DNA of 64,000 nt from positions 46,104-110,103 of the forward strand of contig JAETNQ010000003.1 of assembly GCA_021772075.1 (NCBI GenBank). Direction: 5' to 3'. The DNA is from Lachnospiraceae bacterium. GTDB taxonomy: Bacteria > Bacillota > Clostridia > Lachnospirales > Lachnospiraceae. Of this stretch, positions 40,507 through 46,073 are shown piece by piece. Within the stretch, counting starts at the first letter, position 1; each line of letters starts with the position of its first letter. The position numbers and the translations under genes were made by a program. Below the pieces are notes generated by a model. That model was not told the origin of the DNA, made no database searches, and was given only the letters and a program-made list of their open reading frames with translations.

Positions 40507-41328
40507 ATGACAAACCCGATATTAGAATTGAATGATATCTGCTATTCCTACCACAGCCCAAAAGGCGAAACCGATGCCTTATCCCATATATCCTTCCGTG
40601 TAAAAAAAGGAGAATTTCTGGCAATCGTCGGTCCTTCCGGCTGCGGAAAATCCACTCTTCTATCCATCATCGCCGGCCTGATTCCACCGGAAAGCGGAGA
40701 AATCCATTTTGCATCCGCGCCGGAAGAAAATCCGGAAAAGCGGTGCTGTCCCAGAATCGGATATATGCTCCAGCACGACCATCTTTTCGAATGGCGCACC
40801 ATTTACCGCAACGTTATTCTGGGACTGGAAATAAACCGCCAGCTTACTCCCGAAAAAAAAGAACGGGCTTTGGAACTTCTCAAAGATTACGGACTGTATA
40901 AATTCAAAGACAAAAAGCCCGGAGAACTGTCAGGAGGAATGAAACAGCGCGCCGCGCTCATACGCACCCTCCTCCTTGATCCGGATATTCTTCTGCTGGA
41001 TGAACCGTTCAGCGCCCTGGATTACCAGACAAGGCTTTCCGTTTCCTCCGATATCTGCAATATTATACGTTCCACAAAAAAAACGGCAATCCTTGTAACC
41101 CACGATCTCTCGGAGGCCATCAGTCTTGCCGACCGCATTCTCGTTCTCAGCAAACGTCCCGCCCGCATCAAATGCGACATTCCGATTCACCTGACCATTT
41201 CCGGCAATTCCCCTCTCGCTTCCCGGAACGCCCCGGAATACCAGGGATATTTTAATCAATTATGGAAGGAGATTTCTGATGAAAACTATATACAACTCCC
41301 GCAAATCGCCCGGCCAGCCTCTGAGTAA
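40507..41328 (+). CDS. ABC transporter ATP-binding protein, nitrate/sulfonate/taurine (SsuB/TauB) type
   Basis: Walker A GPSGCGKST, signature LSGGMKQRAALIRTLL, Walker B LLLDEPFSALD; SD TTGGAGGAA. Confidence 0.93.
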   Translation: MTNPILELNDICYSYHSPKGETDALSHISFRVKKGEFLAIVGPSGCGKSTLLSIIAGLIPPESGEIHFASAPEENPEKRCCPRIGYMLQHDHLFEWRTIYRNVILGLEINRQLTPEKKERALELLKDYGLYKFKDKKPGELSGGMKQRAALIRTLLLDPDILLLDEPFSALDYQTRLSVSSDICNIIRSTKKTAILVTHDLSEAISLADRILVLSKRPARIKCDIPIHLTISGNSPLASRNAPEYQGYFNQLWKEISDENYIQLPQIARPASE

Positions 41329-42106
41329 CCAGGAAAAATACGAATACGCACAGCTGCGCCACCACCGCCTCGTGATCGCCGTCCGGTTTCTGATTTTTGC
41401 CTTTTTTCTCGCCGTCTGGGAGTTTTCCGCCCATATGGGTTATATCGATGCATTCTTTTTCAGCAGCCCGAGCCGGGTTGTTTTATGCTTTTGGAATATG
41501 GTAAAGGATGGCACCTTTTTCACGAATACGGGAATTACTCTGCTGGAAACCGTCGCAAGCTTCCTGCTTGTTTTTCTGATCGGAATGTTATCCGCCACCC
41601 TTCTATGGTATTCCTCAAAATGCTCCGAAATTCTGGAACCATATCTGGTCGTTCTGAACAGTCTTCCGAAATCCGCTCTTGCCCCATTATTCATTGTATG
41701 GCTGGGAACAGGAATAAATACCATTATTGTAGCAGGGATTTCTGTCGCCATCTTCGGATCCATCATTAACTTGTATACCGGGTTCCGGCAGGTGGACGAA
41801 GAAAAGATCAAGCTGATCTATACGCTGGGCGGCAGCAAAAGAAACGCTTTCATAAAAGTGGTGCTTCCGGGATCCATTCCCACGATTCTCAGCAATATGA
41901 AGGTAAATATCGGCCTTGCCTTAGTAGGCGTTATTATCGGCGAATTCCTCGCCGCCCGCAGGGGACTCGGGTATTTGATCATTTATGGGTCGCAGGTCTT
42001 CCAGCTCAACATGGTAATCACATCCATCATGATCCTCTGCGTCATCGCCATGGCGCTTTACCAGATGATCCAGGCTTTGGAGCATTATTACCTGAAAAAA
42101 CTATGA
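41279..42106 (+). CDS. ABC transporter permease (SsuC/TauC type)
   Basis: SGSIPTILSNMKVNIGLALVGVIIGEFLAARRGLGYLI (BPD_transp_1 EAA-like region); SD GGAAGGAG; overlaps ATPase gene. Confidence 0.92.
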   Translation: MKTIYNSRKSPGQPLSNQEKYEYAQLRHHRLVIAVRFLIFAFFLAVWEFSAHMGYIDAFFFSSPSRVVLCFWNMVKDGTFFTNTGITLLETVASFLLVFLIGMLSATLLWYSSKCSEILEPYLVVLNSLPKSALAPLFIVWLGTGINTIIVAGISVAIFGSIINLYTGFRQVDEEKIKLIYTLGGSKRNAFIKVVLPGSIPTILSNMKVNIGLALVGVIIGEFLAARRGLGYLIIYGSQVFQLNMVITSIMILCVIAMALYQMIQALEHYYLKKL

Positions 42107-42131: not shown

Positions 42132-42160
42132 TTGACATCCCTTTCCATAAAGCGTATGCT
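42132..42160 (+). promoter_or_regulatory. putative sigma-A promoter of ABC exporter leader
   Basis: TTGACA-17-TATGCT. Confidence 0.75.
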
Positions 42161-42256
42161 AAGAATACGTTTGAAAACGAACATCCAAAATACAAGCCGT
42201 GTTATTTGCAAGTGCGGCAATGAACTCATAAAAACGAAAGAAAGGAGGCAAGAATT

Positions 42257-42409
42257 ATGATGATGAACTTTTACTGCTATAACAATTTCTATTACACCTT
42301 AAAGCCGTATCACCCCATATTTCGAACTGCCTCCAGTACATCGATAGCCAATGCCAAAGCGCATGCCTTTTGCAAAAAGGATACTATTTGCCAATCTGCT
42401 GATTGGTAA
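42257..42409 (+). CDS. 50-codon leader ORF upstream of ABC exporter pair (bmrB-like role proposed)
   Basis: AAAGGAGG SD, 8 nt, ATG; MMMNFYCYNNFYYTLKPYHPIFRTASSTSIANAKAHAFCKKDTICQSADW*; not in ORF track. Confidence 0.7.
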   Translation: MMMNFYCYNNFYYTLKPYHPIFRTASSTSIANAKAHAFCKKDTICQSADW

Positions 42410-42410
42410 A
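42387..42410 (+). promoter_or_regulatory. stem-loop spanning the leader ORF stop codon
   Basis: TTTGCCAATC-TGCT-GATTGGTAAA, 10-bp stem including one G-U; TAA lies in 3' arm. Confidence 0.6.
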
Positions 42411-42475
42411 TACAAATCGGCGACTGATGCAAACGATGTCGCTTAGCGGCATTCCCCGCATACTTTTGACGACGG

Positions 42476-42507
42476 AAGCGGTTCTTTTACGGGAACCGCT
42501 TTTTATT
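42476..42507 (+). terminator. intrinsic terminator/attenuator between leader ORF and ABC exporter genes
   Basis: AAGCGGTTC-TTTTACGG-GAACCGCTT followed by TTTATTT. Confidence 0.85.
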
Positions 42508-42559
42508 TGCCCTAAATTACCGCCAGACCGGTTCTTTTCTATCTTACAGGAGGAATATT

Positions 42560-44311
42560 ATGCAGCCAAAAAAATTATCTGCTTACCTATATGAATATAA
42601 ATTTCCTTACCTTTTCGCTATTTTGTCCATCGTGGTCAGCGTATCCCTGGATCTGACATCGCCCCAGCTGACCAAGCGGATCATTGATGAGGTCATTGTG
42701 GGAGGAAAAACATACCAATTGAAATATCTTCTTGCCGGAATTCTTGGTATTGGCATCGGCCGCTGTATCTTCCAATATGTAAAGGAATATACCTTCGACG
42801 CTACGGGTATTAAAATTACAGCAAAAATGCGCCGCCATTTGTTCGACCATATCCAGTCCTTAAGCGCCGATTTTTTTGACCGCACGAATACCGGGGAATT
42901 AATGGCACGCATTAAAGACGACATCGACCGTATCGGCGACGGCATCACCTTCGTTGGAATGCTGATGATCGAAGTGATCGTACATACTTCCATCGTTCTC
43001 TTCTGCATGTACCGCCTGGATGCACGCCTTGCGTTGATTCCAACGGCGGCCATGTTTGCCGCCGGGCTGACCGCCATCGTCATGGAACGGAAGCTGGATT
43101 CCGTCTACGAGTCTATCAGCGAGGAAACTGCCGCCCTCAACACAATAGCCGAGGAAAACCTTGCCGGCGTACGTACCGTCAAAGCCTTTGCCCGTGAAAA
43201 ATTTGAAATCGGGAAATTTCTTTCCCACAATAAAAAGTATTATGACCTGAATATGAGGCAGTCCAAAATTTTTGTGGCCTATTATCCCTATCTTTCCTTG
43301 ATCAGCAAACTACTGCCTCTTATTATTCTGCTTTTGGGAGGCCGGCTGGTTATGGAGGGAGGACTTTCCCTCGGCGCGCTAGGCGCTTTTGTTGAATATT
43401 CGATGAACATTGTCTGGCCCATGGAAATGCTTGGCTGGCTGACCAACAGTTTTTCCTCCGCCGTGGCATCCAACCGCAAGCTGAATAAAATATATGCGGA
43501 AAAGCCAAGCATTATTGAGAAAGAATGCCCTATTTCCCCAGAACACATTCATGGGAAAATCGAATTTTCCCACGTTTCCTTTTCCAAATCAGATGAAGGC
43601 GCGTCCGTTCCTTATGAGATTCTGCACGATATTTCCTTTACGGTGGAGAAGGGATGCACGATCGGCATCATGGGCGCTACCGGGGCAGGAAAAAGCTCCA
43701 TCGTCCATCTCTTGGAGCGGTTCTACGATGCCACACAGGGTTCTATCCTCGTTGATGGCATTGATGTAAAAGACATGAGCCTGAAACAGCTCCGAAGCAA
43801 TATCTCGCTCGTCACCCAAGACGTGTTCCTTTTCTCAGACACCATTATGGAAAACGTAAAACTGGGGAAACGCGGCCAATTAGACGCTTCCGCCGTGAGA
43901 CATGCTTCCAGGAAAGCACAGGCAAGCGATTTTATTGAGAATATGGAAAAACAATATGACACCGTAATCGGCGAAAGAGGCGTCGGGCTTTCCGGCGGGC
44001 AGAAACAGCGCATCAGCATCGCCAGGGCCCTTGCCAAAAAGAATCCGATCCTTGTCCTCGATGACTCCACTTCCGCACTCGACATGGAAACGGAGCAAAT
44101 GATCCAGGATACTCTTCGTACGCTGGATCATACGACGAAAATCATCATCGCCCACCGCATCAGTTCCGTCATGCATGCCGATGAAATCATCGTCCTGGAA
44201 AACGGATCGATCCATGAGCGGGGAACCCATGCCTCATTAATGGCCCAAAAGGGCCTTTACTATGAAACCTATGCCGCCCAATATCAAGGAGGTGAAAACC
44301 ATGCCCGTTAA
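42560..44311 (+). CDS. ABC exporter half-transporter with degenerate catalytic site (BmrC/YheI-like)
   Basis: TM domain + NBD; GATGAGKSS, LSGGQKQRISIARALA, LVLDDSTSALD (Asp replaces catalytic Glu); SD AGGAGGAA. Confidence 0.92.
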   Translation: MQPKKLSAYLYEYKFPYLFAILSIVVSVSLDLTSPQLTKRIIDEVIVGGKTYQLKYLLAGILGIGIGRCIFQYVKEYTFDATGIKITAKMRRHLFDHIQSLSADFFDRTNTGELMARIKDDIDRIGDGITFVGMLMIEVIVHTSIVLFCMYRLDARLALIPTAAMFAAGLTAIVMERKLDSVYESISEETAALNTIAEENLAGVRTVKAFAREKFEIGKFLSHNKKYYDLNMRQSKIFVAYYPYLSLISKLLPLIILLLGGRLVMEGGLSLGALGAFVEYSMNIVWPMEMLGWLTNSFSSAVASNRKLNKIYAEKPSIIEKECPISPEHIHGKIEFSHVSFSKSDEGASVPYEILHDISFTVEKGCTIGIMGATGAGKSSIVHLLERFYDATQGSILVDGIDVKDMSLKQLRSNISLVTQDVFLFSDTIMENVKLGKRGQLDASAVRHASRKAQASDFIENMEKQYDTVIGERGVGLSGGQKQRISIARALAKKNPILVLDDSTSALDMETEQMIQDTLRTLDHTTKIIIAHRISSVMHADEIIVLENGSIHERGTHASLMAQKGLYYETYAAQYQGGENHAR

Positions 44312-46073
44312 TTCTTATAAAATAGATGAACAGTCTTCCGAAACCGGTAAACTAAAAACGTTGTTCCGGCTTCTCTCCTATCTGATGGTATACAAGAAAG
44401 AAATCCTTTTTGTTCTGTTGATCATGGCTTTCTGTGTCACAGTATCCTTGCTCAATCCGCTGATTATGGAAGAAGCCGTCGATCGTTTCATATCCGCCGG
44501 CAATCAGGAGGGCTTATGGAAGCTGATCGGATTCTCCCTGCTCTTAAATATTCTTATGGTAGCAGGAATTAAAATCCACATGTACGTTATGGCCAAGGTA
44601 TGCAACAACATTCTGGTAACCATCCGCCAGGAACTGTATACCCACATCCAAACCCTGGACTTCCGCTTTTTTGACAGCCGCCCTACCGGAAAGATTCTTT
44701 CCCGTATCATCGGAGATATCAATTCCTTGAAAGATGTCCTGTCCAACTGCGTGACGACTCTGATCCCTGACTTCATCACCGTTTGCGCCGTGGCCGTTAT
44801 TATGTTCGCTAAAAATCCGGTTTTAGCCGCCGCCTCCCTTGTCAGCACCCCGATCATGGCGATCTGTCTCTGGCTGATACAGGTCTACTCCCATAAGCGG
44901 TGGCAGATCCACCGGAAAAAAGCTTCTAACCTGAATGCTTTTGTCCACGAAGATTTTTCGGGCATGCGGATTATCCAAAGCTTCCATGCGGAAGAAGAAA
45001 CCAGACAGACATTCCATGAACTGGTACAGGAACATCACGACTCCTTTGTTTCCGCAGTACGGCTCAATGATGCCTTTGGATCCGTCATTGATTTCTGCTG
45101 GGGAATCGGCACTGTCATGCTTTATTTTACGGGCATTATCATTCTCGGAACCGATCAAGTTTCCATCGGCACTTTTATCGCTTTTGGCACTTATATCTCC
45201 ATGTTCTGGCACCCGATCATGAACCTGAGCAACTTTTATACCCAGCTCATTACCAATATTTCAGGCGCGGAACGGGTTTTTGAAATCATGGATGCACAGT
45301 CAGGTATCACAGATGCACAGGATGTGGCTGCCATTCCTCCCATTACGGGAGAAGTGCGTTTTGAACATGTCACCTTCTCCTATGACGGAAATATCGACGT
45401 TCTGGACGATGTCAGTTTTTGCATCGCCCCAGGTGAAACCATCGCCCTAGTGGGTCCTACCGGCGCAGGCAAGACGACCATTGTCAATCTTATCAGCCGA
45501 TTTTATGATGTCCAGAAAGGCAACGTGTTCGTAGATGGCCATGATGTCAAAAAAGTGAGCATTGAAAGCCTCCGCACACAGATGGGAATTATGACACAGG
45601 ACAATTTCCTTTTTTCCGGCACGATCCGGGATAATATCCTCTATGGAAAACTGGATGCTTCGGAAGATGAAATCATCCGCGCCGCCAAAGCGGTAAACGC
45701 CCATGATTTTATTATGAAGCTGGAAAAGGGATACGATACGGAATTATCCGAGCGGGGAGGAGGGCTTTCCGCCGGGCAGAAGCAGCTTCTGGCCTTTGCC
45801 CGAACGATGGTCTCCGATCCGAAAATACTTATCTTGGATGAAGCGACTTCCAGCATCGATACGAAAACAGAGCTTTTAGTCCAAGCAGGAATCGAGACCC
45901 TTTTAAAAGGGCGGACCTCTTTCGTTGTAGCCCACCGGCTCTCCACGATCCAAAAGGCAGACCGCATCTTTTATATTGACGATGGAAAAATTCTGGAACA
46001 GGGATCACCGAAAGCACTAATGGAAAGGAAAGGCTATTATTACCGCCTGTACATGGCACAGTTCCATTGCTGA
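44301..46073 (+). CDS. ABC exporter half-transporter, canonical NBD (BmrD/YheH-like)
   Basis: TM domain + NBD; GPTGAGKTT, LSAGQKQLLAFARTM, LILDEATSSID; start at ATG 44301 after AAGGAGGTG. Confidence 0.92.
   Translation: MPVNSYKIDEQSSETGKLKTLFRLLSYLMVYKKEILFVLLIMAFCVTVSLLNPLIMEEAVDRFISAGNQEGLWKLIGFSLLLNILMVAGIKIHMYVMAKVCNNILVTIRQELYTHIQTLDFRFFDSRPTGKILSRIIGDINSLKDVLSNCVTTLIPDFITVCAVAVIMFAKNPVLAAASLVSTPIMAICLWLIQVYSHKRWQIHRKKASNLNAFVHEDFSGMRIIQSFHAEEETRQTFHELVQEHHDSFVSAVRLNDAFGSVIDFCWGIGTVMLYFTGIIILGTDQVSIGTFIAFGTYISMFWHPIMNLSNFYTQLITNISGAERVFEIMDAQSGITDAQDVAAIPPITGEVRFEHVTFSYDGNIDVLDDVSFCIAPGETIALVGPTGAGKTTIVNLISRFYDVQKGNVFVDGHDVKKVSIESLRTQMGIMTQDNFLFSGTIRDNILYGKLDASEDEIIRAAKAVNAHDFIMKLEKGYDTELSERGGGLSAGQKQLLAFARTMVSDPKILILDEATSSIDTKTELLVQAGIETLLKGRTSFVVAHRLSTIQKADRIFYIDDGKILEQGSPKALMERKGYYYRLYMAQFHC

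Follow-up and report, generated by a model that had tools for sequence, protein, structure and literature searches.

The two genes of a heterodimeric ABC exporter in a gut Lachnospiraceae bacterium are preceded by a leader that is probably (about 0.7 by our estimate) a ribosome-mediated transcription attenuator: it would respond to a ribosome detained where translation of a small leader ORF begins, with that ORF's own Shine-Dalgarno sequence (SD) as the first strand of the switch. The basis of this reading, established computationally, is a set of three RNA pairings, their conservation, covariation between the SD and its partner inside the ORF (segment 2), and a reading frame kept open without conservation of the peptide. 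The DNA analyzed is a 64,000-nt window (assembly GCA_021772075.1, contig JAETNQ010000003.1, positions 46,104-110,103, forward strand); coordinates are those of the window, and all features described lie on its forward strand.

In the proposed mechanism, segment 2 would have two competing partners, the SD (1:2, anti-antiterminator) and the terminator 5' arm (2:3, antiterminator), and the ribosome would decide between them. (i) Empty start site: 1:2 would form, the terminator (3:4) would fold and the exporter would be off. (ii) Fast ribosome: segment 2 would be covered only briefly and 1:2 would re-form behind the ribosome, again leaving the exporter off. (iii) Ribosome held over the SD and codons 1-3: segment 2 would be freed and, as RNA polymerase passes, would pair with segment 3 before segment 4 is made, turning the exporter on. 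The signal would be the residence of the ribosome at the leader start rather than a stalling peptide.

Organization of the leader and exporter operon

A sigma-70/A-type promoter, TTGACA-17-TATGCT (42132..42160), lies where the first-pass annotation had placed it, with a transcript start expected at ~42167. Taken alone, this motif does not exceed chance (three sites in the search vs. 3.2 expected from shuffles); however, 69 of 73 orthologous leaders have a matching promoter in the 140 nt that precede the leader SD, vs. 0 of 67 control stretches. Directly upstream, on the same strand, are an importer-type ABC ATPase (40507-41328) and a permease (41279-42106). This operon (40507-42106) has no clear terminator before the leader promoter, and its transcripts may run on into the leader. 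Several relatives of the genus (L051, L060, L061) likewise have the permease end upstream.

The strong SD and the 50-codon leader ORF were correctly annotated. The SD, AAAGGAGGC at 42241-42249, lies within segment 1 (42241..42250), assigned from pairing and covariation, and the ORF runs from an ATG at 42257 to 42409. The element that the first-pass annotation overlooked is segment 2 (GAACTGCCTCC, 42324..42334), an anti-SD and antiterminator strand inside the ORF, recognized by RNA conservation and complementary to both the leader SD and the terminator 5' arm. The hairpin noted around the leader stop codon (42385..42412; arms 42385-42396 and 42401-42412; fold z = -6.2) is present, with a stem of 12 bp rather than 10; on inspection of the relatives' leaders, it is missing in most of them and is probably a spacer. 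Between the leader stop and the terminator, the window also carries a small hairpin, ATGTCGC-TTA-GCGGCAT (42435-42455), retained in L051 with a compensatory change (GTCGT-TTA-ACGGC) and seen in no other relative.

The annotated intrinsic terminator (42474..42507) is confirmed. It is built by segment 3 (GGAAGCGGTTC, 42474..42484), which is its 5' arm and the alternative duplex partner of segment 2, by segment 4, and by a U-run that reaches 42507. The 13-bp stem (42474-42503) has a folding energy of -16.6 kcal/mol, equaled in only 2 of 200 shuffles, and lies ~65 nt past the leader stop and 52 nt ahead of the first ABC ATG at 42560. Most orthologous leaders likewise have a terminator after the ORF, and the whole leader RNA of the window folds better than its shuffles (z -3.7). 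Many genus relatives (L059, L060, L061, L062, L064, L067, L068) have a second terminator-like hairpin between the leader terminator and the exporter (for example, AAGCCGCGGC-ACTTTCT-GCCGCGGCTT), and the window has none. A search of Rfam gave nothing relevant in the window or in 12 relatives.

Both downstream genes, subunit 1 (42560..44311) and subunit 2 (44262..46073, its start overlapping the end of subunit 1), encode TMD-NBD exporter subunits with PF00664 and PF00005 in each. Walker B is degenerate in subunit 1 (LVLDDSTSALD) and canonical in subunit 2 (LILDEATSSID), the combination expected for an asymmetric heterodimer of this transporter class. By similarity scores, the transmembrane domain of subunit 1 appears nearer to TmrAB and TM287/288 than to YheI/YheH (TmrB, E 4.7e-29; TM287, 3.1e-24; YheH, 1.1e-19; YheI, 2.1e-18). 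Two orthologues of subunit 1 are disrupted, that of L061 by an in-frame TAA and that of L062 by a split near residue 177; decay or sequencing errors are possible explanations.

Leader RNA and leader peptide in relatives

We gathered orthologues of subunit 1 within the genus, on genome contigs that were mostly Lachnospiraceae, and in further families belonging to the class. An SD-led ORF, mostly of 24-56 codons, lies upstream of nearly all orthologues at 61-91% identity, yielding 73 distinct leaders; the selection demanded an ORF of 8-70 codons, a slight bias toward open frames. The strict search found no leader at 11 loci, six of which gave a coherent leader when weaker SDs were allowed. Other families share this plan at transporter identities of 42-52% (L168, L170, L171), and the leader is recognizable in several families down to ~42%; below that, most of the orthologues searched yielded none. 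A pattern made for the genus occurs nine times in 16 genomes, eight times upstream of the exporter and once without it (L163), vs. no occurrence of the reversed pattern in the same search. For other genera, a separate pattern gave two matches in 200 family genomes, each at the exporter. Elsewhere in the genome of the window, no such leader was found near other ABC transporter genes (nine loci), and a strict three-part pattern, probably too strict, had no match in 391 genomes of the class. The joint duplex score is also positive within coding sequence that is GC-rich (L172, L173), so the distant cases were judged by inspection.

The reading frame is kept in relatives. The first-pass annotation had proposed aligning the leaders upstream of orthologous exporters and would have counted loss of the frame against its idea; in 74 of 76 leaders, no stop codon interrupts the ATG frame up to the end of segment 2, whereas the other two frames are open in 10 and 8 leaders and shuffles in 16%. 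The stop codon usually falls within 40 nt after segment 2 (median 20), and the window ORF is atypical in extending 72 nt beyond it. The peptide itself varies: across 14 leader pairs, substitutions at codon positions 1/2/3 number 83/94/88, and the changed codons comprise 149 nonsynonymous vs. 27 synonymous. The open frame appears to be under selection, the peptide not, and the 14 pairs contain no conserved leader peptide of the erm/msrD-type stalling kind. In L021 and L063, the pair nearest to the window, third-position changes are more frequent (9/11/18), and a weak peptide constraint may exist within this genus. A homology search with the leader peptide in 200 family genomes returned only weak matches besides itself because the peptide is unconserved.

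The abundance of Tyr, Phe, and Asn at the start of the window leader, which had been suggested as the sensor, bears on the idea of a trp-like amino-acid attenuator that would respond to shortage of one of these residues at the leader-start codons. In the E. coli trp attenuator, the leader ribosome selects by its position among mutually exclusive 1:2, 2:3, and 3:4 pairings, a layout that the present leader shares, and Y, F, or N make up 10 of the 18 residues at positions 2-19 of the window leader (56%). However, the share of these residues averages 25% in relatives, Tyr and Phe together average 11%, composition differs freely among leaders, and the operon product is an exporter. Segment 1 here is the SD, and a comparison of leader composition among relatives found no conserved run of regulatory codons of the trp type. 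We regard amino-acid sensing as very improbable; the richness seems limited to this species and its near kin, and the suggested sensor is not supported.

What the leaders share, as far as their sequences indicate, is RNA rather than peptide. The C-terminal end of the ORF usually lies in or near RIASG in the genus and EITS, ELPPG, or KLPP in other genera, and all these ends encode the same RNA element, (A/G)CCTCC, which occurs in each of the three reading frames (42/25/8) and is complementary to the leader's own SD. L053 reads this element in a different frame from its genus relatives (ELPPG, not RIASG), a natural frameshift in which the RNA is retained and the peptide altered.

Alternative pairings and ribosome position

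In the window, the 1:2 helix joins GGAGGCA at 42244-42250 to 42328-42334. Across the leaders, the median 1:2 duplex energy is -13.1 kcal/mol, vs. -8.5 for shuffled bodies, and no more than 5 of 100 shuffles are as good in 49 of 66 leaders. SD and element change together (GGAGGC/GCCTCC, GGAGGT/ACCTCC, CGAGG/CCTCG, TGAGG/CCTCA), and covariation with segment 2 is seen at the SD positions flanking GAGG (-1 and +4) through five pair types each, with 0 of 2000 permutations, which ignore relatedness, as good at both positions. Leaders with an A after GAGG (L055, L059-L062) lack the outer pair. We also considered whether segment 2 masks the exporter's own SD, and rejected this since GGAGG is absent there in several relatives.

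The segment 2 element and the bases 5' of it are also complementary to the terminator 5' arm or loop. In the window, the 2:3 duplex (42324-42334 with 42474-42484) pairs at 10 of 11 positions with an energy of -14.5 kcal/mol. The equivalent pairing joins GAAATTACC to GGTAATTTC in other genera, TTTACCT to AGGTAAA in L168, and GATAACCC and GATAACC to GGGTTATC and GGTTATC in L170 and L171. Where the 5' half of segment 2 varies (GAATTG, GAAATTA, GATAACCC, TTTTTTA), the terminator arm tends to vary in step. The 2:3 duplex is weak in part of the leader set. A test that swapped terminator arms throughout the leader set was uninformative, as a single sequence class accounts for most of the set; it was superseded by a switch score and a class table, where some classes do not favor their own terminator arm.

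To follow the switch in the window, we folded RNA extending to just short of the terminator 3' arm and represented the ribosome as a 31-nt mask. The ribosome-free RNA adopts 1:2 (6.7 pairs), and placing the P site on codons 1-3 gives 2:3 instead (8.8 pairs). The two share the RNA with a ribosome on codons 4-6, 1:2 is dominant on codons 10-15, and neither forms on codons 22-25, so that the flip from 1:2 to 2:3 is confined to codons 1-3. The switch score is at least 3 in 37 of 66 leaders (56%), vs. 2.3% of shuffled bodies, and at least 5 in 23 of 66, vs. 0.3%; in 29 of 66, it is below 3. In silico, in the window folds and in these 37 leaders, antiterminator and terminator are mutually exclusive and set by ribosome position. 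At equilibrium, the completed leader favors the terminator for every ribosome position tried; therefore, the switch must be kinetic and occur during transcription.

The same equilibrium result, together with the better support for 1:2 and the weakness of some 2:3 duplexes, would also suit a simpler scheme in which the SD:anti-SD helix does no more than limit translation of the leader, with an ordinary terminator or insulator behind it and no antitermination. This scheme is quite unlikely in our view: segment 3 is also complementary to segment 2, the joint switch score is far above that of shuffles, and the terminator arm tends to change alongside the 5' half of segment 2.

Relation to known attenuators and significance

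The first-pass annotation had proposed that translation of the leader governs a heterodimeric ABC exporter through ribosome-mediated attenuation of transcription, and our in silico results support this general claim; its specific model, Bacillus subtilis bmrB-bmrCD, is not supported. In a bmrB-type mechanism, slow translation anywhere on the leader, or drug stalling at certain codons or nascent-peptide residues, would expose the antiterminator, and pairing with the SD would be incidental. In favor of this, bmrB is a translated leader with anti-antiterminator, antiterminator, and terminator ahead of an operon of the same kind, it requires translation and responds to ribosome drugs (PMC4191407), and the window leader is rich in Tyr, Phe, and Asn. 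However, the bmrB structures lie inside the ORF (nt 60-162; PMC4191407), whereas the terminator here lies beyond it, the transporter does not appear closest to BmrCD by the scores of its subunit 1 transmembrane domain, the peptide is unconserved, segment 2 occurs in three reading frames, and it covaries with the SD. We consider a bmrB-type mechanism unlikely.

The logic of start-site sensing is closest to that of rli53/lmo0919 (VgaL, Listeria), vmlR (Bacillus subtilis), and cplR (Clostridioides difficile), in which a drug-stalled ribosome on a three-codon uORF blocks an anti-antiterminator, so that the antiterminator forms and termination is relieved (PMC9226507, PMC10201436, PMC8079631). An anti-SD element opposing the uORF start has been reported in the cplR and lmo0919 leaders (PMC10201436, PMC8079631); here, segment 2 takes that position, with covariation, inside a far longer ORF, and the target is a membrane TMD-NBD exporter pair rather than the ABC-F gene of rli53 and cplR. 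In vmlR, the SD is single-stranded before SL-1 and variants of the uORF sequence affected induction, whereas here the SD is a paired strand and the peptide appears unconstrained. The nearest counterpart may be rli59-lmo1652 of Listeria, in which, by its published description, an ABC transporter gene is preceded by a small ORF and a terminator; its termination is relieved by several translation inhibitors (PMC8079631). The attenuator of the present exporter is apparently new to the literature: we found no paper on leader-peptide attenuation in Lachnospiraceae or on an RIASG leader peptide, in a search that covered few subscription journals.

We infer the co-transcriptional kinetics, the inducers, and the exporter substrate; drug induction, and the choice of drugs, follow from the behavior of vmlR and cplR. 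By this analogy, lincosamides, pleuromutilins, and streptogramin A would be the expected inducers because such drugs freeze ribosomes just after initiation, and lincomycin and retapamulin are predicted inducers since both stall initiating ribosomes (PMC9226507). This prediction is testable.

Whether these leaders constitute a widespread, undescribed class of Clostridia attenuators, each sensing start-codon ribosome residence through its own SD while the leader peptide drifts freely, we judge to be an even question. In that case, one exporter family would be opened by whichever drug or stress halts ribosomes shortly past initiation. The plan could be searched for before other genes, as an SD, its complement within the ORF, and a second SD-like target in the terminator arm. 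The leader parts two ideas that are often merged, namely that a leader needs to be translated and that its peptide needs a given sequence; the first appears to hold here but not the second. Such an attenuator would account for how a drug exporter is switched on in a large group of gut bacteria.
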